The notes below the pieces were generated by a model that was not told where the DNA came from, searched no databases, and worked only from the letters and a program-made list of their open reading frames with translations. The translations under genes were made by a program, and so were the position numbers. Shown one piece after another: positions 3,002 to 52,213 of a stretch of DNA of 64,000 nt. How positions within the stretch are numbered: the first letter of the stretch is position 1; each line of letters starts with the position of its first letter. Origin of the DNA: Haloarcula sp. DT43 (GTDB lineage: Archaea; Halobacteriota; Halobacteria; Halobacteriales; Haloarculaceae); the NCBI RefSeq assembly GCF_037078405.1, contig NZ_JAYMGZ010000002.1, positions 1 through 64,000 on the forward strand. Direction: 5' to 3'.

Positions 3002-6000
3002 AGATCAACTCGCTCACGCTCCAGAACATCCGGAGCTACGAGGATCAGACCGTCGAGTTCCCCAAGGGAACGATCCTCATCCACGGTGAGAACGGGGCCG
3101 GGAAGACCTCGCTCCTGATGGGGATCTTCGGTGGGCTGTTCCTCTCGAAGATCCGCAACGTCGGGACGAATGACTTCAGGCTTGACGACCTCGTGCGACG
3201 CGGCGAAGACAAAGGAACGGTAGAGCTCGTCTTCGAGATCGACGGCACCGAATACACCGCGACGTGGAAGCTGTACACCACGAGTACGCCGAACAGCGCC
3301 ACGCTTGACGCGCCTTCGTTCTCCGAGCCGATCACCGGGATCGGTCCGGTCCGCGAAGAAGTCATCAGCCTCCTTGGCATGGATGAGGACGACTTCTCCA
3401 GTTCGGTCTACGTGAAACAGGGCGAGATCGACCGGCTGATCGACGCCGGCAACCGCGCCGAAATGATCGACAGCTTGCTCGGTCTCGACGAGATCGACGA
3501 ATACATCGACCGGATGAAACTCGCGCGCCGCGGAGCCGGGCGCGTCCAAGAGCGAAACAAGAACAGCCGTGAGAACTACCAAGAGGATCTCGACGGCTTC
3601 GAGTATACCGAACCGGAGTACGAGGACGAAATCCAGTCACTCACCGACCGCATTCAGGAACTGGAAGCGGAGATCGAGGAATACGACGAGTTCATCGACC
3701 AACTCAAAGAGCAACGCAACCGCATCGAGGGCGACATTGAGGATTACGAAGACCTCGAAGCACGACGCGACGACAAGGTCGAACAGATCGAGTCCGCACA
3801 GGAAGACCGCACAGACGCGCAGTCCGACATCGACGATAGCGAGTCCACAATCCAAGACGCTCAGGACGACATCGAAGCCCTCGAAGACGAGATCGCCGCC
3901 CTTGACGACGAGGTCCAGTACGATCTCACCACGGCAGATAGTGCTCGTGACGCCCGTGAGGAGGCACAGAGTGAGTACACGACCGCGTCCACAGAGCGGA
4001 CGGAGCGGAAGAACGACTTCGAGAACGCACAAGCCGAGCTAGAACGCCTCGAAGAGCGCCTCACCGAGGTCCGCGACGAGCGCGAAGCACGCGTGAACGA
4101 GCGCGACGAACTCGAAGCGCGCCTCGAAGAGGCAGAGGCAGACCTCGAAGACGCCGAATCGGACCTCCATACTCGGCTTGACGACCGGAACGAGCACGTC
4201 GCGGCGTTCCTCCCTTCGGTCGACGACCTCGACGAGGTCACTGACGAGCACGAGCGCGCCGTCACGGACCGTATCGAGGATCTCCGCGAGCAGCGCGAAG
4301 ACCTGACCGGGACGAAACGCGAGGTCACAACGACACGCGAGCACACCAGCGAGGATCTCGAAGACGCGCGGTCTGAGCGAGACGACGCCGAAGACGAGTT
4401 AGCCGATGCCGAGGTCGAACTCGCTGACATAGAGGCCGACATCGAGCACGCCGAGGACGACCTCTCGGAAGCCGAGGACGAGTTCGAACGCCGTCTCGAC
4501 GAGCTCACTTCGCTCGGCTCCGACCTCGATATCGACGTTACCTCGGAGAATCTTGGCGAGCTCCGCGACACGGTCCTCCCGACCCGGCTCGAACAGGTCA
4601 ACACCGAGTTGAACGACGTCGGGAACACTATCGCCGGCCACGAGAACGACATCGAGCGCTACGAGGAGGAGATCACTGAACTCCAAGCCCTCGAAGAAGA
4701 AGGGACGTGCCCGAAATGCGGACAGTCGGTCGACGAAACACACGTGACTGATGAGGTTGCGGACCTCGAAGCGCAGATCGATAACGCGGAGTCTGCCCTC
4801 GAAGACGAGAGGGAGACCGAGGCAGCGCTCCAGTCGGAGAAAGCGTCACTACAGGACCTCCGTGATGATGTCATCGATGCCATTCAGTTCCGCGAGAACA
4901 CGCTCGTCGAGGCACGGGAGGACGTGACGTCGCTCCGAGACGAGGCGGCCGACGTAGAGACTCACATCGATGATCTTGAAGATACTATCGAGGCCCGTGA
5001 GACGACGATCACCGAACTTGAGGCTGAAATCGACGAGTTCGACGAACGCGTAGCGGACCTTGACGACGAGATCGAAACCGTCACCGCCGACATCGAGACC
5101 GGGGACGAGGTGCTCAGCACGTTCGAAGCGGTCCGTGAGCAGCGTGACGCGGTCGACACGCTCGAAACCGAGATCGAAGACCTCCAGAGCGAGATCGAAG
5201 ACGTGGCCGATACCATCGACACGCTCGACGAGGAAATCGCGGACCTCAACGGCGACATTGCTGACCAGGAAGCGGCTGTCGAGGACGCGGAAGCCGCCCT
5301 CGAAGCTGCGGACGAGCGCGTCGAACAGCTCGACGACGCTCGGAAGACGGTCGAAGACGCAGTCGAACGCTACGACGACATCGCCGATCTCCGAACCACG
5401 ATCCACCAGGAACAGCAGTCTATCCAACACGCACGTGACCGGATCGAGGCTCTCAACAGCCAGATCGCCCGTCTCCGCCAGGAGAAAGAGGACATAGAGG
5501 ACGACCTCGGCGAGAAGGATATCGAGGACCTCCAGGACGACCTGGGACAAGTCGAGGAACTCGTCGAGAAGCGCCAGGACCAGCGCGACGACCGGCAGGA
5601 GGAACTCCAAGATACCCGTGACGAGCGGACACGCCTGGAAGCAGACCTTGAGAACTTCCGTGCAACGAAGGCGCAGATCGACCTCTCGGAGCGGAAAGAG
5701 CGCTGGGCGCAGGAAGTCCACGACGAACTGGACTCGACGATTGCCATCTACGAGAGCACAAAGTCCGACCTCCGCGAACAGTACCTCGCGTACATCAACG
5801 AGTACACGAACGACATATTCAAAGAGATCTACAAGAACAGCAGCTACCAGCAGGTCCTCATCGAGGAAGCGTACAACGACCGCAGCGGGAGCTACGAGTA
5901 CGACATTCGCCTGCTGCGCGACGACGGAACGACCGAGGATCCGAGCAACGCCAGCGGCGGCGAGCGCGCCATCGTGAATCTCGCGCTCCGCGCCGGCATC

Positions 6001-24277: not shown

Positions 24278-24487
24278 CTAATCCTCCATGCTCCATCCGT
24301 TATCGACGTAGTTCTCCAGTATCTGTCTTAATTCCGAGGGAAGCCCCGCCCTCCGGTCCATTGTGACCATCTCTTTTTCGAGGACATAGATCTCTTTCAG
24401 TAGATCCTCTGGGATATTCCGCTCATCAGCCTGTTCAGCGATTAATTTCTCAATCTCCGGATCGATTTCCTCTTCTTCAGTACTCAT
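24278..24487 (-). CDS. pbeB: Small acidic protein (PbeB position)
   Basis: 69 residues, very acidic (MSTEEEEIDPEIEKLIAEQA), predicted to be helical. It overlaps the helicase gene upstream by 4 bp and lies 4 bp from the ATPase gene downstream, so it is surely part of the operon. No domain is recognised. Small linker subunits of this kind often connect a motor to a nuclease. The pbeB name is by operon position only. Confidence 0.6.
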   Translation of the reverse strand: MSTEEEEIDPEIEKLIAEQADERNIPEDLLKEIYVLEKEMVTMDRRAGLPSELRQILENYVDNGWSMED

Positions 24488-26643
24488 ATTAGTGCTAGAT
24501 GCCCCAGTCCGTACGGTTCAAGCTGTTCTCGAAGTTCCTGCCTGATTTCTTCTTGGTTGTCGGCAGAGTCCATGAGAACCCGACTTCGATGGAGTTCCTT
24601 CTTCACAAATTCCCTGGCCGTGTTGTTACCCTGCTCAGCGATGAGGCCAGGCAACGTGATCATGTCATAAACAGATGCCTTCGCTTTATCTTCACTTTTT
24701 CGAAGAACGCGCCCCCTTCGCTGAATGAATTGTCTCTCATTACTTGAACTGGCGATGATGATAGCCGTCGGACAATCAGGTACGTCTACCCCCTCGTCCA
24801 GACAGTTGATTGCCAGTAGGTAGTCTACCATCCCGTTGTTAAACTGGTAGAAGGCACTGGCCTTCTTATCTTCGTCCATATCAGAGACGAACACTGCGTA
24901 GGAGTCTTCTCCCTTCTTCCGGTTCAGCTGGTCTTTGATTTGGTCAACCTGCTGATTGTCCTCGCAGAAGATAATGGCAGGTGTCGGGTGGTATGTCTCA
25001 AGGAAGCGACCGAATCGGTGAGGCTTGTTCTCTGCTTTCTTTAGAATCTTGGCTCTGTCTCTGGAGAGCCTTTCCTGCTTTTCTCTCAGTTTTTGGACTG
25101 ACTTGCTGGGGTTGTCGCTGTTTAGTTCGCTGGTGACTTGACCGATTCGCTGGCTGTAGCTTTTGTATTTCTCGTATTCTTCCTCGTTAAGGTCGCAGAT
25201 GATAGGGTAGTAGTCGTAGTTGGATAGGTAGTTGTTCTCGATGGCTTCGGCGGTTTCGAAGCGGAAGATGATGTCGTCGAAGTAGTTCATAATCTTCCGG
25301 TTGCCGGTGTCATCGAACCTGCGTTCAGGGGTTGCGGAGAGCCCGATACGTCGGCCTGCGTCTATCTCAAAAAGCTGGCTGAAGGTGTCGGCTCCGTACC
25401 GGTGGACTTCGTCAGCGATTATTTGAAGCCGGTTGGGAGGTACTCCTCGGAGGAAGCTTCGGAATGCGTCTCCGACCGCTGTATGGATTGTTGTGAGGAT
25501 GAACTGCTTAGGACGGTCGTGGATTACATCTGTGCTTTCGGTCCGGTAGGGGTTGACAAGGCCCAGCATTTCTTGTCGCCAGTCTGTTTCTCCGCTGCAG
25601 ACGAGGATTTCGGCATCTTCGATCAGCTCTTCGATGTCCTCTTTCCATTGGTTGAGTAGAGTAGTGGTTGGGACGATAACGAGGGTGACTCTGTTGTTGG
25701 CATCGAGGTTTGCAGCTGCGATTGCAGATCTGGTCTTTCCGGTGCCGGTGGCCAATGCGAAGATGCCGTGATAGTCGTTTGCGATCCACTCGTCTATGGA
25801 TTGTTCTTGGTGTTCCCAGAGTGGGATCTCCTCTTCTTCGCTTTCCCCGGTGTCCTCCTTGTTGAACAGTTCGAGGTCTGGACGGCCATCGACGGTTTCT
25901 GGACTGTGTTCTTTCAGCCCGGATTCGACTGCATCCGGTAGCTCTTTTACCGTTACGCGGGCCTCTTCGTTGTTCCAGAGGTTGTTGAAGGATTCCTGTT
26001 TCTCGGAGGTCCGCATATCGAGGCCGGGCCACCAGTTGGTGTAGACGTCGAAAGATTCGAAGTTGTCTGTCCAAGCTAACTCGGTCTCGTTTATTGAGCC
26101 GAAGAAGGCTACTTGGTTACCGTGGTCGTCTGAGAAGATTCCGAGTTTTTCGTGGTAGTGGCTGAAGGGGTTCAGGTCTTCCGCATCAGTCATGTAGGCG
26201 ATACGGATTTCCAGCATCTCTTCTTCGAGCATCCAGGCGAGGCATTTGAAACGGTCTCGCTTCAGATAGTCCTCGAATTGTTCGGTGGAGAGTCCTCGGT
26301 GAAGAGCGTTCTCTATGACTTCTTCTTCATCGAGGTCGGTTTCGGGTTCGGAGGCTTGTTCCAGGACTTCGATGTCTTCCGGTTTGAGCCGGGGGCTGAC
26401 GATCAGCCGCATTTTGCCGTCGTTCAGAACTAGTTTGGAGATTCCCTGAGCGGCGAGGACCAGCGATTTGCTGTCGAAGTAACCGGCTGCCCGGTCGTAC
26501 TGGGTTGCGTTTTTGAGACAGGGTATGTAGAAATCGTTCAGGATATCGTCGTTACCTGAGCGATAACTGTTTTGGAGGGAGAGGGTTCTGAGGCCTTGTT
26601 CTTCCTCATCCTCGGTTTGCTCAGGTGTTGTTCCGTCAGCCAT
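24484..26643 (-). CDS. pbeA: PLD-domain DEAD/DEAH helicase (PbeA position)
   Basis: 719 residues. The N-terminal third is a phospholipase D-like domain with YDRAAGYFDSKSL and HYHEKLGIF...FFGSINETELAW (H-K and N motif). A superfamily 2 helicase follows: Walker A FALATGTGKTRSA, DEVH box IIADEVHRYG, motif III GLSATPERR, and motif VI QRRGRVLR. This architecture is known in restriction enzymes of DNA phosphorothioation systems. It starts 25 bp after dndA on the same strand and opens the pbe half of the operon. Only one clear HKD-like motif was found, so nuclease activity would need a dimer. Confidence 0.8.
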   Translation of the reverse strand: MADGTTPEQTEDEEEQGLRTLSLQNSYRSGNDDILNDFYIPCLKNATQYDRAAGYFDSKSLVLAAQGISKLVLNDGKMRLIVSPRLKPEDIEVLEQASEPETDLDEEEVIENALHRGLSTEQFEDYLKRDRFKCLAWMLEEEMLEIRIAYMTDAEDLNPFSHYHEKLGIFSDDHGNQVAFFGSINETELAWTDNFESFDVYTNWWPGLDMRTSEKQESFNNLWNNEEARVTVKELPDAVESGLKEHSPETVDGRPDLELFNKEDTGESEEEEIPLWEHQEQSIDEWIANDYHGIFALATGTGKTRSAIAAANLDANNRVTLVIVPTTTLLNQWKEDIEELIEDAEILVCSGETDWRQEMLGLVNPYRTESTDVIHDRPKQFILTTIHTAVGDAFRSFLRGVPPNRLQIIADEVHRYGADTFSQLFEIDAGRRIGLSATPERRFDDTGNRKIMNYFDDIIFRFETAEAIENNYLSNYDYYPIICDLNEEEYEKYKSYSQRIGQVTSELNSDNPSKSVQKLREKQERLSRDRAKILKKAENKPHRFGRFLETYHPTPAIIFCEDNQQVDQIKDQLNRKKGEDSYAVFVSDMDEDKKASAFYQFNNGMVDYLLAINCLDEGVDVPDCPTAIIIASSSNERQFIQRRGRVLRKSEDKAKASVYDMITLPGLIAEQGNNTAREFVKKELHRSRVLMDSADNQEEIRQELREQLEPYGLGHLALI

Positions 26644-26668
26644 TCTTGGATGTTTGGAGGGATGTTTG

Positions 26669-27850
26669 TCAGCTTATTTGTAGCTTCCGCAGGCGGGAGA
26701 CGCTCTGAATAACCTGATCCGTGGCGTATTCAATTTCTTCCTGGGTGTTGTCTTTCCCAAGGCCGAACCGGACTGCCGAGTGCCAACGTTCTTCGTCGCC
26801 GCCTAATGCTTGGAGTACGTGTGAGGCTTCAACCTTGCCAGTTGTACAGGCTGATCCGGCTGAAACAGCTATCTCTGGTTGCAGGTTTTGTACGAGAGCT
26901 TTGTTTTCGACGCCGAGGAAGCTGACATTCAGATTGTTTGGAATCCTCTTTACGGGGTGGCCGTTGAGGACCACGTCGTCGAGTTCGCTCTGGAAGCGTT
27001 CCCACATGTAGGACGTGAGTTCGTCGACGTGTTCTCGGCGTTCTTCCATCTCTTGGTCGGCTAGTTGTACTGCCTTGCCGAGTCCGATTATGGAAGGTAC
27101 GTTGAGGGTGCCGGAGCGCCAGCCTCGTTCGTGGCCGCCTCCGTGGATGAGCGGGTCGAGTTTGACCTTCGGGTTTCGTCGACGGACGTAGAGAGCTCCG
27201 ATGCCTTTCGGCCCGTAGATCTTGTGGGCGGAGATCGACATCAGGTCTATTCCCATTTCTTCGACGTCGATTGGGAGATAGCCGACTGCCTGGACTGCGT
27301 CGGTGTGAAAGAAGACCTCGTTGTCTTTCGCTATTTCCCCGATTTCCTTGAGAGGTGCGATGGTTCCTACCTCGTTGTTGGCGGCCATGATCGAGATGAG
27401 GAGTGTGTCGTCTCGGATGGCGTCTTCCACGTCGTCGGGATTGATCAACCCTTTTTCATCGACATGAAGGTAGGTGACGTCGAAGCCACGTTCTTCCAGG
27501 GCTTCACAGGCTTCGAGCACGGCTTCGTGTTCGGTTTCTCCGGTGATTATGTGGTTTCCCTTGTCTTTCCTTTCGGCGTAGTCAGCGATGCCCTTGACGG
27601 CTAAGTTGTCGGACTCTGTTGCGCCACTGGTGAAGATGATCTCTTCCTTACGGCAGTTGAGAACCTCGGAGATCTGTTTCCGTGCTTGTTCCACGCCTTC
27701 CTTGGCTTTGGCTCCGTAGAGGTGGTCGTCGCTGGCTGGGTTTCCGAAGTTCTCGGTGAGGTACGGGGTCATCTCTTCAGCTACCCGCTCATCTACAGGA
27801 GTGGTGGCGTGATGATCGAGGTAGACCGCGTCCTCAAGACTTGGACTCAA
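26669..27850 (-). CDS. dndA: DndA cysteine desulfurase
   Basis: 393-residue class V aminotransferase of the IscS/NifS type, close to full length. The PLP lysine is in SISAHKIYGPKG, the PLP-binding His in GETEHEAV, and the catalytic cysteine in SAGSACTTG. It delivers sulfur for phosphorothioate formation in the DNA backbone and can build the DndC iron-sulfur cluster. The context (4-bp overlap with dndE, then the pbe genes) makes a housekeeping iron-sulfur role unlikely. Confidence 0.93.
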   Translation of the reverse strand: MSPSLEDAVYLDHHATTPVDERVAEEMTPYLTENFGNPASDDHLYGAKAKEGVEQARKQISEVLNCRKEEIIFTSGATESDNLAVKGIADYAERKDKGNHIITGETEHEAVLEACEALEERGFDVTYLHVDEKGLINPDDVEDAIRDDTLLISIMAANNEVGTIAPLKEIGEIAKDNEVFFHTDAVQAVGYLPIDVEEMGIDLMSISAHKIYGPKGIGALYVRRRNPKVKLDPLIHGGGHERGWRSGTLNVPSIIGLGKAVQLADQEMEERREHVDELTSYMWERFQSELDDVVLNGHPVKRIPNNLNVSFLGVENKALVQNLQPEIAVSAGSACTTGKVEASHVLQALGGDEERWHSAVRFGLGKDNTQEEIEYATDQVIQSVSRLRKLQIS

Positions 27851-28260
27851 GGTAGCTCACCATCCGGTTCCACGTCAGAATCTTCTTTCAAGCTATTGGG
27901 GATCAGGGCTTGGAAGTCACTGAGGTCCCTGATGTTGCCGTGGACTCGGATTACACCCCGGTTCAGGTGAGCGACGAACTCGTCGTAGAGATCTTCCTCT
28001 GGGTCTTTCCCCTCTTGGATTAGCCGTTCTTTCAACAGTGCCATGTAGAGGGCGTCGTGTTCTCCAAGCAGGGTGTACCGGTTGAAGGTTTGACCGTCGT
28101 TATCGTATTCTTCAGGGGTTGGTGGCCGTGGCTCATTCAGGGAATAGCACAGGCCGATTCTGCAGAGGTAGTTCGGTGTAAGCCCAGTATTCCCTTTCAC
28201 CATTCGTAGCCTGTTCGTGGCATCCGTCCCGATCTGTATCCGGTTGAACTCTTTGCTCAT
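27847..28260 (-). CDS. dndE: DndE phosphorothioation protein
   Basis: 137 residues with the DndE pattern: FNRIQIGTDATNRLRMVKGN TGLTPNYLCRIGLCYSL, then FNRYTLLGEHDALYMALLKE and a C-terminal HLNRGVIRVHGN. DndE binds nicked or target DNA in the modification complex with DndC and DndD. It overlaps dndD and dndA by 4 bp each. Confidence 0.94.
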   Translation of the reverse strand: MSKEFNRIQIGTDATNRLRMVKGNTGLTPNYLCRIGLCYSLNEPRPPTPEEYDNDGQTFNRYTLLGEHDALYMALLKERLIQEGKDPEEDLYDEFVAHLNRGVIRVHGNIRDLSDFQALIPNSLKEDSDVEPDGELP

Positions 28261-30281
28261 TGCGTCACCTCCAGGTCGATTTCCTCTCCTTGGTCAGGAC
28301 TGGACCAGAAGTAACCCCGAGAGACCGAGGTGTAACCTTCTTCCTGGTTGTAGTCCAGGTGATAGGCCTGAGTAACGTCGTCGTTCAGCTTGTCGTAGTA
28401 CTCGTCATCGATTTCGGTGTCAGTAGAGAAGACCAAAACTTGGTGTGATGCTTCCGGGAAGAAGTTCTCTACGAGGTTTTCCCGGTGTGCCTTGTCGAGG
28501 CGTCCGAGCGGTGTGTCGACGATGAAGGGAAGTGGTCTGCCGGAGATCTCTGCAAGTGCCCAGAGTAGGGCGGTTGCGAAGATCTGGCGTTCGCCGGCAG
28601 AGAGTTCGGACTGTGGTTTGTGGTTCCCATGTTTCGTTCTGACTTTGATGTTGAGAGCGTCTTCGTCAACCTCAATTCCTTCGTAGAAGTCGCTCTTGTT
28701 CGATAGAGCCAGGTACCGTTCTGTGAGTGCGTCTTCGAGGTTCCGAAGCTTTTCCTTGGCCAGATCTTCCCGGTATTCACTCAGCACGTTCTGTACATTG
28801 GAGGCGAGTTCTGCCCTCTCTGAGACGGTTTCTTTGTCGTCCTTCCGGTCGAGCTTGTTGTCGATCTGGTTTCCGAGTCTGGAGGTCCGTGTGTCGAGTT
28901 TGCTCAGTTCTTCCTCGATGTCTTCGATATCGGATTTGAGGGATTCCTTTTCCTCGATCAGTTCGTTCAGGTCTTCGATGAGTGGCGAGATATCCTCTTC
29001 TTCGGGGGCACGTCCAAGCTTCTCTTCGATGTCCTGCAGTTCTCGGACCATGCTCTCCAGCTCGCTGGATTTCCCACCGAGGGTTTCGGGCACCTCGTTC
29101 AGTGCTTTGTCGACGACGCCGTACATCTCACGGCGCTGTGCTTCTGAGAACTGGTGGAGGAGCTGAGTGTTCTCGTCATCGACCTGGAACCTGTTTCGGA
29201 TCTCTGACTGGAGCCGGCTCTTGATTTCTTCGGCTTGATCGTCAGGGACATCCAGGTCACTGAAGACGTCGCCATTCAGGGCGTCGTCGAGTTCGCTATC
29301 AAGCCGTTCTCTGGCAGCAGCGGTTTCCTGCTTCTCGCTTTCGTCTTTCAGCCGGTTGACGACGCTTTGGCAGAGGTTGGGTGCAAGTGCGAAGGGGTAT
29401 GCGTCGGTGACGATGTCTCGGATATCTTCTTCGACATTCTCTATCTTCGCATTGAGTTCTGCCCGGCGTTCTTTGAGTTCTTCGCGTTTGTCGGCGTAGG
29501 CACCTCCCTCTTGAGCGATATCGGATTCCTTACTGTCGATCTCAGTTTCGAGTTCAGCAAGCCGTTTTTCCTTGTCGTCCTTTCTGTCCTTGAGCTCCTG
29601 TTCACGTTGCTCCAGTTCTTCTTTCTCTTCCCGGAGTTCTTTGATTTCCTCGGTGATGCCTTCGAGACCGCTTTCGTCGAGTTTTCTGGAGCGGTAGATA
29701 GAGAGGTCTGCGTCAAGTCGGTCGACGAGGTCGAGACCGAGTAGTGAGAACAGGGAGTCTTCGAAGCTTTCGTCGTCTTCGATTGCGGTAGCAAGTTCTT
29801 GGACTTTCTCTCCGTCGAAGAAGAAGAGCTGTGAGACTCCTGGCGGGATCAGCTCCTTCAGGAAGTCTTCCCACTGGTCTTTGTCCAGGTCGGATGGCAG
29901 CTTTCCGTTACGACGTACTTCGAGGTTCTCGACGATGCTTTTACCACGGTCACGCCAGGATCGCTCGACGCTGTAGTGGTCTACCTCGCCCATATAGGCG
30001 TACTCAAATTCGAGGCGAATCGACGCTTCGTCAGCGGTGTCTTCGGGATACTCGTGGAGCTTCCCTCTGATATGCTCCTTGTAATCTGCTTCGCTGACCC
30101 GTCGACCTAACGCACTTCGCCCGTGAAGACAGATTTGGACGCCTCGGAACAGCGTGGTTTTCCCAGCTCCGTTTGATCCACCGAACAGGATGATAGGAGA
30201 GTCCTGTGAAGTGGTTAGCGTAAACTCGTTTCTGCCGCGATATGGTCCGAAATCATTGATGACCAGCTTTGTCAGTTTCAT
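28257..30281 (-). CDS. dndD: DndD SMC-like ATPase
   Basis: 674 residues. Walker A FGGSNGAGKTTLF lies near residues 34-46, followed by the DndD-typical RGVQICLHGR. A coiled coil occupies the middle, with the signature LSAGERQIFATALLW and Walker B PFIVDTPLGRLD near the C-terminus. DndD nicks or remodels DNA in the phosphorothioation complex. It lies 16 bp downstream of dndC and overlaps dndE by 4 bp. Confidence 0.94.
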   Translation of the reverse strand: MKLTKLVINDFGPYRGRNEFTLTTSQDSPIILFGGSNGAGKTTLFRGVQICLHGRSALGRRVSEADYKEHIRGKLHEYPEDTADEASIRLEFEYAYMGEVDHYSVERSWRDRGKSIVENLEVRRNGKLPSDLDKDQWEDFLKELIPPGVSQLFFFDGEKVQELATAIEDDESFEDSLFSLLGLDLVDRLDADLSIYRSRKLDESGLEGITEEIKELREEKEELEQREQELKDRKDDKEKRLAELETEIDSKESDIAQEGGAYADKREELKERRAELNAKIENVEEDIRDIVTDAYPFALAPNLCQSVVNRLKDESEKQETAAARERLDSELDDALNGDVFSDLDVPDDQAEEIKSRLQSEIRNRFQVDDENTQLLHQFSEAQRREMYGVVDKALNEVPETLGGKSSELESMVRELQDIEEKLGRAPEEEDISPLIEDLNELIEEKESLKSDIEDIEEELSKLDTRTSRLGNQIDNKLDRKDDKETVSERAELASNVQNVLSEYREDLAKEKLRNLEDALTERYLALSNKSDFYEGIEVDEDALNIKVRTKHGNHKPQSELSAGERQIFATALLWALAEISGRPLPFIVDTPLGRLDKAHRENLVENFFPEASHQVLVFSTDTEIDDEYYDKLNDDVTQAYHLDYNQEEGYTSVSRGYFWSSPDQGEEIDLEVTQ

Positions 30282-30297
30282 TGATTAGAGAGATGGT

Positions 30298-31779
30298 TCA
30301 GGTCTGCGACTCTGGCGTGTACTGCCACTTTTCAACGTTCTCTTCGCCTTCGATATCTGCTACGATTTCTTCCATAGGCCGCCAGTCCTCTCGCATGACC
30401 TTGTCGATCTCGTTGTAGATCGAGGCCCGGCGCTTCATGCCGTGGTGCTGGAGTTCGGTGTCGAGCAGTCTCTGGACTAGTTCTGGGGGAACGTCGTGCT
30501 TGTCTGCAATCTTCTTGAGCAACTTGGCTTCGGTTTCTCCGAAGGCACCGTAGTCGTCCTGCACCCAGCCGATGTCTTCCCCCATGACTTCTCTGTAAAT
30601 CTTAGGGACGGAGTCTTCCCAGTCCGCTCTTTCTTCCCGCCAGATACGGCGGATTTCTCGCAGCTCCTCGTCCCGGATAAGATCCATTTCCTCATCGTCT
30701 GGGAGCTGTTCGTTCACCTTTTTCTGGGTTTTCAGCAGCTTTCTCAGCAGGTCTTTGCAGAACTCGAATTTGTGGGCTCGGGGAATGATCCCGTTGTCGC
30801 CGTTGGTCTTGGTTTTGACGTAGCCGTGTTGCCGGCCTTTGACCTGCCTGTATTTGGGTTTTTCATCGGGGTCCTGAGTGGACTTTAGGAAGTCACGGAA
30901 CTCAAGAAGCGGTTCCATCCACTCGTCGCCTTCGTCGATCATGTTCTGCATCGCCTTGTCCTCGGATACGACGGTGCAGGTCCAGCATCCGAACCGGCTG
31001 TTACCGCAGGAAGGTGTTTTCGTGTCAATGACCATCGGGCACTCGTCGTCGGCTTCTTGGTAGAGGGCTGCGAGGTCTCGGTTTTCTTTGCCCCAAGGAC
31101 ATTCAACTTGGAGGAGGTAGGACCAGACGTCGTCGACAATCCAGTCTTCGATGGGGGTGTAGACGAAGGCGTTGGCGAATTTGTTGTGGCGGGAGAGGAC
31201 GCTACCCTCGATGCTGTGCATCTCCATCACCTGTTTCCGGGTGGCGGATTCGGCTTTGCGTGCTCCGAGGATGACCACGACTTCGCCGTGTTCGGAGACT
31301 TTCTCTTGGATGAAGCGGTCTGCCGGGTCGATTTTCAGGCGTTCGGTACACCAGCGGAAGGTCTGGTTGGGTGCTGGGTAGCCACGTCCGATGAGATTGA
31401 CCCAGAAAGAGTCGTCGACTTTCGGAGTGACTTTGTGGGCTTCGAACGGGAGATCCTCTTTCTCAGAGTATTCGTTGATGTTTTCAAGAGTACTGGTGAT
31501 ATGGTTTACAATCTTAGGAGTTTCGACGAGTGTGTCAGAGGAAATGACGTAAATAGACTTTGTTTGCTGCTCATCTGGGAGATCTTTGATAGCGTACCAA
31601 ATGAGTTGAAGGGCCGTAGTAGAGTCTTTTCCGCCGCTGTATCCGATAACCCAAGGCCGCTCATCTGCAAGATAGGTGTCGCGGATTTCCTCATAGATAT
31701 CCTCAAGAGAGCGATTGTCGAATACGGATTCTCCTTTCTCCTGACCCGTATTTGAAACGTCGAGATTGTCAGTACTCAT
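30298..31779 (-). CDS. dndC: DndC PAPS-reductase-like sulfurtransferase
   Basis: 493 residues. The PP-loop ATP site is IGYSGGKDSTTAL near residues 43-55, and the region CGNSRFGCWTCTVV holds the Cys residues that bind the 4Fe-4S cluster. DndC activates the backbone phosphate and passes sulfur from DndA to DNA. It is the first gene of the eight-gene operon dndCDEA-pbeABCD. A TATA-like element lies just upstream (about 31790-31801, reading CCTAAATAAGAG on this strand). It should not be confused with the CysH-like protein of type IV-B CRISPR systems, although an HRAMP operon lies close by on the other strand. Confidence 0.94.
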   Translation of the reverse strand: MSTDNLDVSNTGQEKGESVFDNRSLEDIYEEIRDTYLADERPWVIGYSGGKDSTTALQLIWYAIKDLPDEQQTKSIYVISSDTLVETPKIVNHITSTLENINEYSEKEDLPFEAHKVTPKVDDSFWVNLIGRGYPAPNQTFRWCTERLKIDPADRFIQEKVSEHGEVVVILGARKAESATRKQVMEMHSIEGSVLSRHNKFANAFVYTPIEDWIVDDVWSYLLQVECPWGKENRDLAALYQEADDECPMVIDTKTPSCGNSRFGCWTCTVVSEDKAMQNMIDEGDEWMEPLLEFRDFLKSTQDPDEKPKYRQVKGRQHGYVKTKTNGDNGIIPRAHKFEFCKDLLRKLLKTQKKVNEQLPDDEEMDLIRDEELREIRRIWREERADWEDSVPKIYREVMGEDIGWVQDDYGAFGETEAKLLKKIADKHDVPPELVQRLLDTELQHHGMKRRASIYNEIDKVMREDWRPMEEIVADIEGEENVEKWQYTPESQT

Positions 31780-39609: not shown

Positions 39610-40965
39610 ATGACTCGAAGTATCGAGACAGAATTAGCGACGGTACGGCAGCAGCTTGCTGCACTTCCGGAGGCGGAGCAACCCCCACCGACTTCGCTGC
39701 AGGTGCTTGGCCGAAGTTCGCAGGAGCGGGACTGGCAGCAGTTTCTCGTTCATTTCTTGACGCCGGATGCACCGCATGGTCTCGAACACGCCGTGTTAGA
39801 ACACGTATTGGCGGCGTTGTCTGATCGAGATGATCTGGAGTTCGGGTTTTCTCGGTTCGATATCGACGATATCCAGGTCGCCCAGGAGGTGTCTACGTCG
39901 GACGGGATCCCAGATGTGGTGTTGTGGGCGTCCGACGAGTGGTTCATTTGCTGGGAGCTGAAGGTTCACGCATCAGAAGGGCAAGACCAGACAGAACGGT
40001 ACGTCGGCGTTGATTCGTTCGACGGGATTGGGGTTGACAAGTCCGAGGTACCATCCGACGGCCAGCACTACGTCTTCTTGGCCCCGGAATCCGCGTCATC
40101 ACCAGCCGCTGAGGAATTTGTGCATGTTTCGTGGGAGTGGCTGGCTGCAGAACTTCAGTCGTTCTTGATCGAGAGCTACGACGAGTACCCGGCACGAACT
40201 ACGGCGCAGTTGAAGGACTTCGTCGACACGATTCGGAGTGAACTCACGATGACAGATTATCAAGAGAATCAGCAAGAGAAGGTGGAATTGTACGTCGAGA
40301 ACTACGGCGTGATCTCGGAGTTAGAGACAGCGTTTGAGGAAGAGTGGTCGGAGTTTGAAGCGACGTGGGGAAGACGGGTGGCGCAGACGCTGACGGGTGC
40401 GGAGCTTATTGAAGATGCGGATGTGCCGGAGGAGTACGCTGCGGTTCGGGTGCCGATGGGGACGGGTGACCGCCGACAGTGGACGTTCCGGCAGGGGAAG
40501 TCAGATTGGTCGTGGCTATTCCCTCGGGAGTGGTGGACGAAGCTAGATGAGGATCGCCCAGTTTCGGATGCGACCAAACCGAATGCACGGGTTGGGCTGG
40601 TCCACCGACTTGACCGGCATCGAACGGAGGCAGTCCGCGATCATACCTTGGTTGTCTACCTTCGAAATGCACCGTCAGGCCACGATAGCTTCTACAATAA
40701 TTTCGCAGCGCGATTCAGTGACGCCAATACGGAGGTCGCAGAGGCGATTGAAGAGACGAATTTCACGATTACGGGGAACAAGTCGAATCTCCTCCGTGCT
40801 GAGTACAACATCAACGTTGATGCCCACGCTGACTTCTTCGACGCGTACGTTGCAGCCCTATCAGAAGCCATCCAGGAGATCGTCACCGAAAACTCTGAGC
40901 TGGTCGAAATTATTGACCGCCTGTATAAAATGACAGTTGCGGAAGACGTGACGGTGGAAACGTGA
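39610..40965 (+). CDS. PD-(D/E)XK nuclease family protein
   Basis: 451 residues. The core SDGIPDVVLWASDEWFICWELKV followed by SEGQDQTERYV gives the D...ExK pattern plus the Gln-containing helix typical of PD-(D/E)XK nucleases. The remaining ~300 residues are mixed helix and strand with no recognised domain. It is preceded by a 79-bp gap. It resembles stand-alone proteins of defence islands whose targets are unknown. Confidence 0.75.
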   Translation: MTRSIETELATVRQQLAALPEAEQPPPTSLQVLGRSSQERDWQQFLVHFLTPDAPHGLEHAVLEHVLAALSDRDDLEFGFSRFDIDDIQVAQEVSTSDGIPDVVLWASDEWFICWELKVHASEGQDQTERYVGVDSFDGIGVDKSEVPSDGQHYVFLAPESASSPAAEEFVHVSWEWLAAELQSFLIESYDEYPARTTAQLKDFVDTIRSELTMTDYQENQQEKVELYVENYGVISELETAFEEEWSEFEATWGRRVAQTLTGAELIEDADVPEEYAAVRVPMGTGDRRQWTFRQGKSDWSWLFPREWWTKLDEDRPVSDATKPNARVGLVHRLDRHRTEAVRDHTLVVYLRNAPSGHDSFYNNFAARFSDANTEVAEAIEETNFTITGNKSNLLRAEYNINVDAHADFFDAYVAALSEAIQEIVTENSELVEIIDRLYKMTVAEDVTVET

Positions 40966-41071
40966 GTGATTCGGCCAGTCATAGCTGTGACTTTCGGCTC
41001 TATTCTTTGACTGAAACGTTTGGAGAGGTTCTGTGATGAGTGCTGGCTAACCGGGTGAAAAGACAAAACGG

Positions 41072-41689
41072 TTAGACCTTGAGTAGGTGGTCGTAGACTC
41101 TCTCGGTCGTCTGAATACTTCGGTGACGGAGTCTGTTCCGGACATCGTACAGCGTGTTTCCATCTTCTTCGTTCATCATTCGATAAGCAACGCCGTGCCT
41201 CAGGGCGTGGGGTGTGACGTCACTTGAGTCGCCTCTACTCCCGTCGAGTTTGTAGGGTCGAATCCCGGCCTCCTCGGCGATCTTGTGAAGCATGTTCCGT
41301 ACACCTTGTTCGCTGATGCGCTCGGAGGAGCGAGAGGGGAAGAGTGCTGGCGTGTCTTTCCATCGGTTGGTGAGGTACGCTGAGAGCAGCCGTGTTGTGT
41401 CGTCGGCGAGTTCGAGGGTCACTGGTGGTGGCGAGTTTTGGTTGGGGTAGTCTTTCTGCAGTTCCGTGGGGAGGTAGAGCTCCGAGTTGTTGTTCCGGAG
41501 TAGTTCGACATCGACCTGGACGAGTTCGCCTACCCGGAGCCCCGTATCGTACATCGTCGTAACGATTGCTTCGTTTCGCTGTTGGAGATAGTCTGCACCA
41601 GCGGAGTAACATGCCGACCGGAGCGATTCGACTTGATCAGGTGTCACCCATACTTTCGCCCGAACTTGGGAATTTGCATATTCGCCCAT
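41072..41689 (-). CDS. Compact tyrosine recombinase (XerC/D-like)
   Basis: 205 residues, essentially a catalytic domain: TGLRVGELVQVDV (first Arg), TPHALRHGVAYRMM (HxxR), LRHRSIQTTERVYDHL (His/Arg and nucleophile Tyr). The usual N-terminal SAM-like core-binding domain is missing or reduced to ~25 residues. The active residues are intact. It reads away from a perfect 14-8-14 inverted repeat 44 bp upstream of its start, which is the obvious candidate for its recombination site. It may be a plasmid-type resolvase or an invertase rather than an integrase. Confidence 0.85.
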   Translation of the reverse strand: MGEYANSQVRAKVWVTPDQVESLRSACYSAGADYLQQRNEAIVTTMYDTGLRVGELVQVDVELLRNNNSELYLPTELQKDYPNQNSPPPVTLELADDTTRLLSAYLTNRWKDTPALFPSRSSERISEQGVRNMLHKIAEEAGIRPYKLDGSRGDSSDVTPHALRHGVAYRMMNEEDGNTLYDVRNRLRHRSIQTTERVYDHLLKV

Positions 41690-41732
41690 CCTAAGTAAAC
41701 CTCTTTATAAATGATAGTGGGCTACAGCCACT

Positions 41733-41768
41733 TGAACTTTGGAGTCCACAAGTAGACTCCAAAGTTCA
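41733..41768. repeat. Perfect 14-8-14 inverted repeat (lox/FRT-like site)
   Basis: The left arm TGAACTTTGGAGTC (41733-41746) and the right arm GACTCCAAAGTTCA (41755-41768) are exact inverse complements, separated by the asymmetric 8-mer CACAAGTA. Arms of 13-14 bp around an 8-bp spacer are the architecture of recombination cores such as loxP and FRT. It lies between the divergent recombinase and AbrB-like genes. A hairpin-forming regulatory site is the alternative. No second copy was seen by eye in the window. Confidence 0.65.
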
Positions 41769-41866
41769 TTAGAGAAAAATCGTGCCCAGTCATATTTGTC
41801 GATACTACGTAGAAGACGTGAGTTGTATGGGGACTACGAAACAAGTACTGAATAGGAGCGCAAAGA

Positions 41867-42145
41867 ATGTTTGAGGATGAGGGTGAAGAGGAGGTCGTAC
41901 GGTCTGCAAGAATCACTCGACACCGTGACGGAACGCCGGTTGGGACGGGCATTCATCTCACCGCCACCGATCTTCTTCAATTGGGAATTGATCCGGTTGA
42001 CACAGACGTCGTAGATATTAGAATCCAAGATGGATCTCTTCACATGATTCCGGGTGATGGTGAACCAGTGATTATCGAACGAGGAGCGTCTGAGGCAAAG
42101 AAAGAAGAGTGGCAGGAAGCGAAAGCAGTCTACGATACAGGTTAA
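41867..42145 (+). CDS. Possible AbrB-like small regulator
   Basis: 92 residues. The segment ARITRHRDGTPVGTGIHL TATDLLQLGIDPVDTDVVDIRI looks like a swapped-hairpin AbrB/SpoVT fold, and a charged helical tail follows. No toxin gene is coupled to it: the next gene is convergent, with a 4-bp overlap. It diverges from the tyrosine recombinase with the lox-like site in between, so it may control that promoter. The assignment is by pattern only. Confidence 0.55.
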   Translation: MFEDEGEEEVVRSARITRHRDGTPVGTGIHLTATDLLQLGIDPVDTDVVDIRIQDGSLHMIPGDGEPVIIERGASEAKKEEWQEAKAVYDTG

Positions 42146-42612
42146 GAGGGGTCGTCAAGTAGGCTATTCACTTTGTCGCGGAGGCTTGTGTTGTACTTCT
42201 CTGTAACTTCGAAGAGATTGTTCTGTACGACCATTTTGTAGAGATCCATGAACTCTACAAGCTCAACATCCATATCTGAGTGGTTCCGGTAAATCTTCTC
42301 TTCTTCTTGGGTCCGATTGCTTCCTTGTCCGTTTGTAACCAAGATCGCTTTTGTCGCGTTTACTCTGACCGCGACTCCAACGATTTCCCGAAGATGAATG
42401 GGTGCGATCCCTGACTTATCCTCAACCTGCTGCTTTACTGAAACCACTTGCAGCTTCTCATTTTTATACAGCTTGACGTCCATCCCGCCATCCTTCTTAC
42501 TCTGCGTTACCCGGGCGTCCCATCCCAACTCATCATAGATGTGGCCGACCACCTGTTCGAACTGTCGATCAGTAATCGCTTCAGACCACTCTCGAAACTC
42601 GTCTGGCTTCAT
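42142..42612 (-). CDS. Mrr-like restriction endonuclease domain protein
   Basis: 156 residues made of one Mrr catalytic domain: FEQVVGHIYDELGWDARVTQ, then DGGMDVKLY and VVSVKQQVE, giving the D...QxK-type PD-(D/E)XK site, and a C-terminal TKAILVTNG strand. Mrr-type enzymes cut modified DNA in type IV restriction. No separate DNA-reading winged domain is fused here, so specificity may come from elsewhere. It is AT-rich relative to neighbours. Confidence 0.82.
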   Translation of the reverse strand: MKPDEFREWSEAITDRQFEQVVGHIYDELGWDARVTQSKKDGGMDVKLYKNEKLQVVSVKQQVEDKSGIAPIHLREIVGVAVRVNATKAILVTNGQGSNRTQEEEKIYRNHSDMDVELVEFMDLYKMVVQNNLFEVTEKYNTSLRDKVNSLLDDPS

Positions 42613-44575: not shown

Positions 44576-45682
44576 TTAATCGCTTCTCGGTTCGTCGAAA
44601 TCGAATCTGGTGGAACCAACTACTCCTCCGAGTGTCGCAGCGGCGATGTCCGGAGAGATGACCCCGCCCGTCGAGATGACAATAGGGGCGAGAACCAGCA
44701 ACAGGCCCAATGCGTACGCTGCTGCGCCTGCTACCGGGGCGGGTTCTGTTGTAGTCGCTTTCATTGATTCTCGCTCATACCGTACGCGAGTAAGGGACTC
44801 TCTTACTGTGACCATCGTCCCTAGGGCGATTGCAGTGGATGGCGTCGCAGCGTTCAAGAAGTCACTCAGTGGCTTCGTTGATTCGAACTCTTCCTTTTCG
44901 GCTGCGGTCTCTTCGGCATCTAACCGTTTCTTTAGGGTTTGCACATCGCTTTTCGTTAGATCAGCCACGTCAACGATTCCCCGGAGATCGAGTGCGCGCT
45001 CGATCTGTTCTAGCCGTGCCAGTATCTTGCCGAACTCGTCCTGCCGCGGCGGGGCCGGAACGTCTTTTTCCACTACTCCCGCGCGTGCGAGTTCGTCTTG
45101 CAAGTCGCGGGGTAGTGGACTCGCAAGGTAGGGTTCGATGGCTTTCCTGCTATCCCAGCTCCCCATTTCCATCACGACTTCCATATCGACGCCAAGACGA
45201 CGGACCATGTTCGTCGCGTAGTAAGCTCGCAAGTCATGGGATCGAACGTGCTCGTAGTCGCTGTTGCCCGTCGCTATTGCGGTTGCTTCAGCGGTCTCTC
45301 TTATTTGATCACCCAACCATTTTGCCGTGATGTCGAAGATCTCGTCGTCCCCTTCTATACCCTCGTCATCACAGTACTGCTGTACCTCCTCGTACAGATC
45401 CCAGGGTACCCACGAAACCCGCGCCTTTCCTCCGAGCGTGTTTTCGCCTTCAGTAGTGTCTTTCGTCTCTCGGAGTCTTACGAACGCCAACTCAACGCGT
45501 GGGTCGTCAGGAACGAAGAAGTCGTTCCGGACCAGGTTTGCCGTCTTTCCAATCCGTGGTGAGGACTCAGCGATGATCCGAGATGCGATTCGCTCTCGGC
45601 GGTCGCAGTGGTCGAGGAATGTCTCGTATTCGTACGGGGCTAGGTAGACCCGCACTTCTTTTTCCATTGGTTTCAATCTCAT
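44576..45682 (-). CDS. Tyrosine recombinase with C-terminal membrane segments
   Basis: 368 residues from the ATG at 45682 (MRLKPMEKEVRVYLAP); an upstream ATG at 45715 is possible. The catalytic domain keeps SHDLRAYYATNM (HxxR-like), MGSWDSRKAIEPYLA (nucleophile Tyr) and an N-terminal Arg region (RIASRIIAESSPRIGK). After a coiled linker come two hydrophobic segments, AAAYALGLLLVLAPIVI and GGVISPDIAAATLGGVV, then a short acidic tail. A membrane-anchored recombinase is odd. The upstream gap has dyads that could be its operator or recombination site. Confidence 0.78.
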   Translation of the reverse strand: MRLKPMEKEVRVYLAPYEYETFLDHCDRRERIASRIIAESSPRIGKTANLVRNDFFVPDDPRVELAFVRLRETKDTTEGENTLGGKARVSWVPWDLYEEVQQYCDDEGIEGDDEIFDITAKWLGDQIRETAEATAIATGNSDYEHVRSHDLRAYYATNMVRRLGVDMEVVMEMGSWDSRKAIEPYLASPLPRDLQDELARAGVVEKDVPAPPRQDEFGKILARLEQIERALDLRGIVDVADLTKSDVQTLKKRLDAEETAAEKEEFESTKPLSDFLNAATPSTAIALGTMVTVRESLTRVRYERESMKATTTEPAPVAGAAAYALGLLLVLAPIVISTGGVISPDIAAATLGGVVGSTRFDFDEPRSD

Positions 45683-45715
45683 TATACTTCCATCCTCATT
45701 TCGATCTATCAGCAT

Positions 45716-48650: not shown

Positions 48651-49349
48651 ATGGGTTGCGTCATGCAAGAACCGAATGACGACCCAGGGACGATACTCCG
48701 CTGGGAAGACCACATCGTACCGATTCTAGAACATCCAGCCATCCACATTCGAGACAAAGCCCTCGTCGCAGTCGGGTGGGAAGCACATCCACGACCAGTT
48801 GAAGTTCAACAGCTGAGCTTCAGCGACGTGGAAGACAAAGGCGACCACATGACGATCCTACTCACCGGCCCGCAGGGACGTGACCGAAAACTCATGATCG
48901 TCGGATCGGCACCCTACCTGAGAAAGTGGATTCAAGCGGAACACCCGGTCGTCGAATTGCTCGCAGACGATGCCGAACCGCTAAAAGATGCCGCACCAGG
49001 AACGCTGGTCTGGACCGGAACGGAACGGAACCACTACCTCTCCTCGGCCGAGTTTCTGAGCATTACGGAGCGAGCCCGCAAGCGCGCTAATGTCACGGCA
49101 GAAGTCACGCTGGAGAAGCTCCGAAAGTCACGAGCGAAACAACTGGCTGCCAAACTCGCCTTGGACAATCGTATTCTTCGAGAGAGGTTCGGATGGATAC
49201 GCCACGTGCGCATGGAGGACATCGAATCGTTCATAGACAACAGTTCCGACGAAGACATCAAGCCGCGCCCACCCATCCAGTGTTCGGACTGTGGTGCGTG
49301 GAGACCACGACATCAACCGTGCCTCTGGTGTGATGCCGGTCGCTCATAA
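48651..49349 (+). pseudogene. Degenerate integrase paralogue lacking the catalytic Tyr
   Basis: 232 residues resembling the catalytic part of the island integrase at 50894-52213: HPRPVEVQQLSF around the first Arg, TLEKLRKSRAKQLA around the second, and a C-terminal zinc finger CSDCGAWRPRHQPCLWC like the integrase's CPRCDKQTPRDEPFCVWC. The N-terminal core-binding domain is absent. No Tyr occurs in the last ~60 residues; the place of the nucleophile reads DIESFID. It is an intact reading frame, so it may be a DNA-binding decoy or regulator rather than a dead gene. Confidence 0.65.
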
Positions 49350-50627: not shown

Positions 50628-50897
50628 TTAAAGATCTGGTGTTAGGCCGAAGCTGGGTAACCGAGTGATTGACCCCTCACCGTTGACGACGTACGGCAAC
50701 TGGACTACGTCGGATTCAGTTCGCCGTATCCATTCACGAGCGATGTCTACATCCCATTGACTGCTGGACTCATCATCTGTATTCAGCACGCCATATCTAT
50801 CAAACTCTGAGGACTTCAACAGAGCTGTTTTCTGAAACCAGAGACGGTACACACTATACTCACCTGCTCTGAAGCGCAGGGCAGCATTTGCGATCAC
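50628..50897 (-). CDS. Small protein coupled to the integrase
   Basis: 89 residues starting inside the 3' end of the integrase gene (4-bp overlap), hence translationally coupled to it. The sequence is mixed (MIANAALRFRAGEYSVYRLW) without a recognised fold. A recombination-directionality factor would fit the position, but the composition does not clearly suggest a winged helix. It may also be a fragment. Confidence 0.45.
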   Translation of the reverse strand: MIANAALRFRAGEYSVYRLWFQKTALLKSSEFDRYGVLNTDDESSSQWDVDIAREWIRRTESDVVQLPYVVNGEGSITRLPSFGLTPDL

Positions 50898-52213
50898 TCG
50901 GTAGCTTCGACGAACTTCCGAGCAGTATCGATGACCTTTGCGTCGCCGCCCAAGCTCTCGATGAGGGGTTCGATCTCCTCAACTGCGTCCAAGAGCTCCG
51001 GGTTCTCTTTCGCAAGCCGGAGTAACTCTCGCCGTTTCTGGGATTCCTCCTTTTCGAGTTTGTCGACAGCATCGGGCTCCATGGCCTGGTGACACCAGAC
51101 GCAGAACGGCTCGTCGCGCGGGGTCTGTTTATCACACCGAGGGCACGTGAGCGGTGTCCTGTCTTCTGTTTTCTCGGTTTGGACGTCCAGTCCTTGAAGT
51201 TCCGCGTACTGGTTGTTCTCGTTCTCGGGGCCAAACGCTGCGATGTACCGTCTCGCGTGATCAGAGGTCGCTGTTCGTCCTTGGCGCTCGTTGATGAACG
51301 ACTCATTCGCTCCTTGTTTGGCGAGCCAGTACGTGTTCGACTTCCGGAAGTTCGTTGGCGTGACGGGCTTGTCGATGTCAGCCCGCCGCCCCGCTTTTTT
51401 GAACCGCTTGAGGAACGTCTGGTAGCTCGCGTTGTCGTACGCGTCGTCGAGGTTGCACCAGAGGTACGCCTCGTCATCGTCGGGCGCAGGGTGCTCCCTG
51501 AGCCATTGTTGTAGGTAGGGAACGCTGTTAATTAGTGTGACCGAGTGTTCCCCTTGTTTCCCGTCGAGGCTAATCTGAATCCCGTGGTCGGCATCGGTTA
51601 CCTGCCCAATCAGGATGTTGTGGCTCTCTTCTCCACGTGGTCCGAGTTCGTGGGAGACGGCGATCAGCGCCTTGTCCCGTGGATTAGTCGTTCCTTCGAC
51701 GGCCATCCGTTTGGCCTCTTCCCAGTCCAGCATGTCCGACCGGCTGGGTGAGGGGTCGTAGGAGTTGCTCGTCCCCGTTGGAACCCAGGCCAGCGAGTCC
51801 GGCACCTCGTCGTCAGCCATCTTGAGGACTCGCTTCCCGAACACCCGAAGCGCAACCCGGTAGTCCTGATTCGTCTCCTCGCTGAACTCCGGAGTATCAC
51901 GTTCCTGGTTGATCCACACGACGACATCCTCGGCGGCCTCTCGGCTTTCGAGTGCATCTGCGAGTCCGCCAACCTGTTCCGCCATGATGACGCAGTGGCG
52001 GAGGAGTTTGAGATGCCTGTAGTCCGTGTACTTCGAATTGAGTAGATTGAGCTGCCGACTAAACTCTAGGAGCGCCTCTGCATCGTCCTCGGAGATAGAC
52101 GGTACATCGTCGTCATCTTGATCATCGTCATCTGGCTCCTCGTCAGACAGACTTGAACGTTTCTTGACCCTTTGTTTGAGGTTCTCGATTTGGTCTTTCG
52201 TTCCCATCCTCAT
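50894..52213 (-). CDS. int: Island tyrosine integrase with zinc finger
   Basis: 439 residues. An acidic N-terminus is followed by a core-binding domain (about 50-150). The catalytic domain has SHELGPRGEESHNI (first Arg), VTPTNFRKSNTYW (Asn in place of His in the HxxR box) and SDHARRYIAAFG (nucleophile Tyr). A zinc finger CPRCDKQTPRDEPFCVWC and a coiled tail follow. It begins 43 bp inside the right attachment repeat and is the integrase most likely to have inserted the island into tRNA-Cys. Its start region is next to a 9-bp dyad (52233-52257). Confidence 0.9.
   Translation of the reverse strand: MRMGTKDQIENLKQRVKKRSSLSDEEPDDDDQDDDDVPSISEDDAEALLEFSRQLNLLNSKYTDYRHLKLLRHCVIMAEQVGGLADALESREAAEDVVVWINQERDTPEFSEETNQDYRVALRVFGKRVLKMADDEVPDSLAWVPTGTSNSYDPSPSRSDMLDWEEAKRMAVEGTTNPRDKALIAVSHELGPRGEESHNILIGQVTDADHGIQISLDGKQGEHSVTLINSVPYLQQWLREHPAPDDDEAYLWCNLDDAYDNASYQTFLKRFKKAGRRADIDKPVTPTNFRKSNTYWLAKQGANESFINERQGRTATSDHARRYIAAFGPENENNQYAELQGLDVQTEKTEDRTPLTCPRCDKQTPRDEPFCVWCHQAMEPDAVDKLEKEESQKRRELLRLAKENPELLDAVEEIEPLIESLGGDAKVIDTARKFVEATE

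Follow-up and report, generated by a model that had tools for sequence, protein, structure and literature searches.

A compact recombinase gene preceded by a perfect palindrome raises the question of whether gene and palindrome work as one unit, and what such a unit would do for its replicon. The gene lies on the (−) strand at 41072–41689 of the window, the 64-kb stretch of haloarchaeal DNA analysed here. We consider it probable that the two form a self-contained module for site-specific recombination, one that acts on direct repeats by resolving or excising them and is controlled, in the manner of TnpI and its IRS, by a third half-site. The locus sits in a low-GC region that also holds Dnd-type genes, nucleases and several integrases, with GC content climbing near 52 kb. 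Dnd/Pbe phosphorothioation-type defence genes (DndA, DndC, DndD-like) occupy 24487–31779, and the recombinase gene, within 39610–42612, has a nuclease-like ORF on either side, one of PDDEXK_4 type (PDC-S26 candidate defence) and one Mrr-like. Three more phage-integrase-family ORFs (44576–45715, 48651–49346 and 50897–52213) lie no more than 11 kb from the recombinase at the edge of the low-GC region.

The protein is a tyrosine recombinase reduced to its catalytic domain. Pfam Phage_integrase covers residues 14–202 (82 bits), and residues R52, K79, H161xxR164, H189 and Y199 are invariant in alignments of 31 and 42 relatives, which bears out the earlier note’s description of a 205-residue recombinase with intact catalytic residues. 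The AlphaFold model (pLDDT 92) consists of the catalytic domain alone and a short N-terminus; only ~13 residues precede the domain, so the N-terminal core-binding domain of the Cre family is absent. The solved structures nearest to the model are XerA, XerH, XerD and Cre. By sequence, the protein falls far below the NCBIfam equivalog cut-offs for XerA, XerC and XerD (84 versus 220 bits; 64 versus 335 bits), matches the integron-integrase profile partially (29.4 bits, cut-off 265), and gives a weak match of 20.6 bits to a DNA-invertase profile. Among phage proteins, Int2 of phiCh1, phiH1 and ChaoS9 come closest, at ~47% identity. With these Int2-type compact recombinases it shares full-length homology, the restriction to a catalytic domain, an intact R-K-HxxR-H-Y set and a gene whose 5′ end carries a palindromic core.

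That core is the perfect 14-8-14 palindrome TGAACTTTGGAGTC-CACAAGTA-GACTCCAAAGTTCA at 41733–41768, upstream of the gene. Read on the (−) strand along the gene, it comprises a gene-distal (left) arm TGAACTTTGGAGTC (41755–41768), an 8-bp spacer TACTTGTG (41747–41754) and a gene-proximal (right) arm GACTCCAAAGTTCA (41733–41746). The exact 14-bp inverted repeat with an 8-bp spacer had been described previously and is indeed exact; the distance from site to gene, given as 44 bp, measures 43 bp to the ATG. Between core and ORF, also on the (−) strand, is a TATA-like box (41704–41711) that may serve as the promoter. The geometry is that of Cre/loxP, with two inverted arms of ~13 bp around an asymmetric spacer of the 6–8 bp class. 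No other perfect 14-8-14 palindrome occurs in the window, and none occurred in ten Markov-shuffled windows. A search of the 3.75-Mb genome with a single arm, allowing up to two mismatches, returned four other, unrelated places, which is the chance level set by a reversed-pattern control, and disclosed no second core site.

We found that the core is a conserved part of the recombinase gene locus. Roughly 100 haloarchaeal relatives (42–100% identity) have a 13-(7/8)-13 core in the same place, and a core with at least 9/13 paired positions lies upstream of the gene in 107 of 110 homologues, although some of the weakest (9/13) are individually no better than chance. Homologous recombinases lacking a nearby repeat had been named beforehand as the outcome that would speak against the site, and this is not what the family looks like. 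A search of 391 genomes of the class with the window core pattern (12+12 specified bases, up to three mismatches) retrieved 29 sites in 24 genomes and no control matches; 27 of the 29 adjoin a family gene, one of these genes being broken. A second arm type, verified class-wide in the same way, is found in 23/391 genomes. Arms differ by subfamily, and the arm types are many (CCAAAGTT, CCCAAACT, CGAACATT, CGACGTT, CGGAAACT, CTGCCACT, CCCACAGT and CCTACATT among them). The 8-bp spacers vary as well yet keep their polarity relative to the gene, with a family preference of T-N-Y-T-W-R-Y-R along the gene; a leave-one-out score called the orientation correctly at 51 of 64 loci. A strand-exchange site would be expected to have such polarity; a symmetric operator would not. 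In the non-subscription literature on haloarchaeal plasmid multimer resolution and on phiCh1 Int2 function we found no report of this core, and likewise none of it as a haloarchaeal loxP-like site.

The site does not end with the core. A third half-site, AATTCCCAAGTTC, lies inside the ORF at 41662–41674 on the (−) strand, under codons 5–10; it repeats the gene-proximal arm in direct orientation, with 72 bp from start to start, and is a previously unreported feature that the earlier note does not contain. Matching the gene-proximal arm of each of 87 nonredundant loci against its surrounding DNA, we found a copy (at least 8/11) at 72 bp in 50 loci, at 73 bp in 14, at 71 bp in one, at 82/83 bp in three and at 91/92 bp in two. 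Steps of ~10 bp correspond to whole helical turns. In one more locus the copy is perfect and stands at 67 bp, off the whole-turn series. Among the 87 loci no comparable peak was present at any other distance from −380 to +400, and no additional half-sites, upstream, downstream or inverted, were enriched. The third half-site follows the arm sequence when the arms change between subfamilies: at exactly 72 bp, the match to a locus’s own arm averages 7.14/11 versus 5.48 for permuted partners, a value reached in 0 of 2000 permutations. The distance from start codon to third half-site differs among subfamilies while the distance from core to third half-site is fixed. Because the element lies within the recombinase ORF it constrains the codons there, which are atypical: Val is GTT in 29/29 cases (13% in the rest of the genes), Ile is ATT in 15/15 (19%) and Lys is AAA in 23/24 (39%). 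The phage Int2 clade has the core without the third half-site, so the third half-site is not essential to the whole family. In two members (L081 of genome G033 and L116 of G140) the gene-distal arm is degraded, and the gene-proximal arm and third half-site are retained.

The arrangement around the promoter raises the alternative that the palindrome is an operator and nothing else, where the recombinase, or some other protein, would sit around the TATA box and repress the gene. In its favour, of the 66 relatives with a TATA-like hexamer, 53 have it at the same distance of 22 bp from the core end, between core and third half-site. We regard this reading as very unlikely, given the conserved spacer polarity, the existence of gene-less cores with other flanks, and a breakpoint of recombination that, in relatives, falls precisely within the core (these last two are described below). 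Autoregulation is compatible with a recombination module but insufficient alone.

Evidence that the core is exchanged comes from Natronococcus, where sites of two kinds, A and B, have in common a ~105-bp left flank, the left arm and the spacer. A sites run on into promoter, third half-site and recombinase gene; B sites continue into another right arm and flank, with no third half-site and no gene. At seven Natronococcus loci a B site lies upstream of an A site in the same orientation, at distances of 0.46, 0.53, 0.74, 1.67, 2.66, 4.66 and 8.0 kb. Two genomes of this group can be compared as filled and empty versions of the locus, and their breakpoint falls inside the core: G132 and contig C49 of G390 are 99.0% identical over 1,890 bp, a stretch that stops four bases inside the right core arm. 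Past the breakpoint G132 enters an A site. G390 first enters a B site, followed by a 392-bp body that contains an 85-aa ORF and by another left flank, and only after these reaches an A site, which amounts to a 525-bp insertion at the core in G390 (L341 rc 4416–4941 versus L335/L336). This divergence inside the core, with its insertion, indicates that recombination at the Natronococcus core has occurred, and in some lineages segments of DNA have come in at the site. A/B pairs, the one just described and those at L333, L337, L338, L342, L344 and L345, enclose bodies whose ORFs are of small membrane, regulator and other kinds, and on contig C44 of G390 two consecutive B sites stand 5.2 kb apart. 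Gene-less cores of the window arm type also occur outside Natronococcus, together with a conserved ~85-bp flank, on pHLAC01 of Halorubrum lacusprofundi and in three other genomes (L102:7601–7724; L073 1786–1909; L117:9168–9290; L283; L284); no Rfam match was obtained for this flank. Considered as a structured RNA, the Natronococcus left flank displayed no covariation and no pair altered on both sides.

These results argue strongly for a lox/FRT-like core, as the earlier note had proposed: the core is kept beside the gene family-wide, its arms vary yet stay palindromic, its spacer is polar and relatives display natural exchange. The helically phased third half-site means that it is not a plain lox/FRT site.

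The Natronococcus segments at A sites indicate that insertion of DNA is also within reach of the same reaction, and B-type sites in some genomes hint at DNA capture besides resolution. Extended to the family, this would make the locus an integron-like platform for cassette capture, with A as primary attachment site and circles carrying a gene-less B site inserting there and being re-excisable, a reading that we hold possible but doubtful. It gains from the coexistence of A and B sites in a constant order and orientation at seven loci, from the filled/empty pair resolved to the base, and from the similar core with its conserved 85-bp flank in Halorubrum lacusprofundi and three other genomes. 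It loses from the absence of a second core within ~10 kb at most of 84 loci scanned, from bodies between B and A sites that range from ~0.3 (0.33) to 8 kb and in some cases lack a convincing gene, from a shared left flank with no attC-like covarying fold, and from the wide miss of the integron-integrase cut-off (29 versus 265 bits). A related form, rather doubtful in our judgement, is a haloarchaeal capture system unrelated to IntI, in which a catalytic-domain-only recombinase with a tripartite primary site would take in and release B-site circles; the Natronococcus loci would then be its arrays and the window an empty platform.

The number and orientation of cores bear most directly on resolution. 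Nearly all genomes have a single core. On each of five closed plasmids, of 8.9 (Halorientalis), 10.8, 14.0 (Halorubrum p13), 15.8 and 18.3 kb, there is exactly one core, together with one gene. The proviruses of phiCh1 and phiH1 are circular plasmids (PMC6471424), and their int2 genes lie in the repH/parA region; int2 of ChaoS9 is near parA. The earlier suggestion of plasmid dimer resolution thus fits the closed plasmids and plasmid-prophages with exactly one site, though this falls short of proof. A second core within ~10 kb was detected at 5 of the 84 loci, with one control locus also positive. Every one of these second cores is in direct orientation, and, a single weak match apart, they lie beyond the native core as seen from the gene; no inverted second core was found within ~10 kb of the 84 loci or in the window genome. 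Promoter inversion, the other role that had been suggested, is therefore unsupported, since a second site is missing from the host genome and those that occur elsewhere are direct repeats. A fim-like or phiCh1 Int1-like switch inverting a promoter or gene would draw on the weak DNA-invertase match (20.6 bits) and on the fact that FimB and FimE are small catalytic-domain-only invertases, but it needs an inverted site pair flanking the switch, and with that partner missing from the window genome and from 10 kb around the other loci, and every second core a direct repeat, we judge it extremely improbable.

The same counts speak to whether the core is the attP (or attL) of a conventional mobile-element integrase, the element integrating at a chromosomal attB. 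Homology between loci often stops at the outer edge of the core, the left arm is degraded in L081 and L116 as an attL might be, and other integrases lie nearby in the window. Against this, the window genome has no second copy of the arms, cores are single in nearly all genomes, and none of three hosts of small closed plasmids (G110, G374 and G181) has a chromosomal copy of the plasmid core. In G033 single-arm matches elsewhere are at control level, so that its degraded left arm, tried as a candidate attL, was rejected, the native match being the only other one. We therefore consider this reading unlikely. Integration at a tRNA was likewise ruled out, with no arm match in the window genome and no tRNA at the gene-less core sites.

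We thus return to a resolution module under the control of a third half-site. The recombinase, as the presumed agent of exchange, would bind both inverted arms of the core (13–14 bp each, 8-bp spacer), cut at the spacer edges and exchange strands between two cores, so that sites in direct orientation, as in plasmid or provirus multimers, would be resolved or excised. A further protomer may bind the third half-site, which lies some seven helical turns off, at the beginning of the enzyme’s own gene; core and third half-site would thereby be joined in a phased complex that surrounds the promoter. The accessory repeats of TnpI confer a resolution bias. By analogy with TnpI at the IRS of Tn4430 and Tn5401, the phased complex probably biases the reaction toward resolution and represses the gene. 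On small plasmids the module would most simply serve multimer resolution. Many family members are located on main chromosomes, where a need for this is not obvious, which weighs against the reading; resolution and DNA insertion are both candidates for the function under selection. Because the window genome has only one site, the window copy is either this replicon’s own means of resolution or a copy that was inherited and now lies idle in a defence-gene island. For a widespread and poorly characterised family of haloarchaeal recombinases, the module defines a target site and offers a mechanism that can be tested. An accessory site that sits in the enzyme’s own coding sequence and keeps whole-turn spacing while arms, start codon and N-terminus drift is a natural experiment in the control of recombination. 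Minimal enzymes of ~205 aa with many natural site specificities are potential tools, and the A/B sites hint at an unrecognised archaeal route of DNA capture.

Several known systems share parts of this layout. Integrons (IntI, attI, attC) likewise place a site beside the recombinase gene, and some relatives here have segments between directly repeated sites; they differ in that an IntI-level profile match is absent and no attC-like fold was found in the left flank of the A/B sites. XerA/dif and XerH/difH offer the closest solved folds (5hxy, TM ~0.7) and sequence profiles, but XerA is a two-domain protein whose cut-off of 220 bits the window protein misses at 84, and dif is 11-6-11 (PMC8371274), as against haloarchaeal arms of 13–14 bp and a spacer of 7–8 bp. 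Cre of phage P1 shares the catalytic fold (TM ~0.67), a position beside a single 13-8-13-type site with an asymmetric spacer, and plasmid-prophage relatives; in contrast, Cre has an N-terminal clamp domain, needs no accessory site and has no close sequence relation to the window protein. Among phage proteins the nearest in sequence is Int2 of phiCh1, phiH1 and ChaoS9, a homologous full-length small recombinase. In phiCh1 and phiH1 its gene starts at a palindromic core and belongs to the parA/repH region of proviruses kept as circular plasmids. Int2 differs in having no third half-site, and the ChaoS9 palindrome is weak (9/13, not above shuffles); the literature that we found assigns Int2 no function. 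The annotated start of phiH1 int2 (L070:6914–7576) is probably too far upstream, as the core falls inside the annotated ORF and a later ATG fits the family. In layout, the site resembles TnpI/IRS of Tn4430 and Tn5401. There the recombinase binds an inverted core (IR1-IR2) along with direct repeats, all located upstream of its gene, and TnpI modulates promoters within the site (PMC7157771). Both systems pair a tyrosine recombinase with a site just upstream of its gene that combines an inverted core and an accessory direct repeat of the arm. The haloarchaeal module comes without a transposon, no tnpA-like family appearing among those shown in the neighbourhood scans, and where the IRS has two accessory repeats the haloarchaeal site has one, set within the ORF at 72 bp and shiftable by whole turns.
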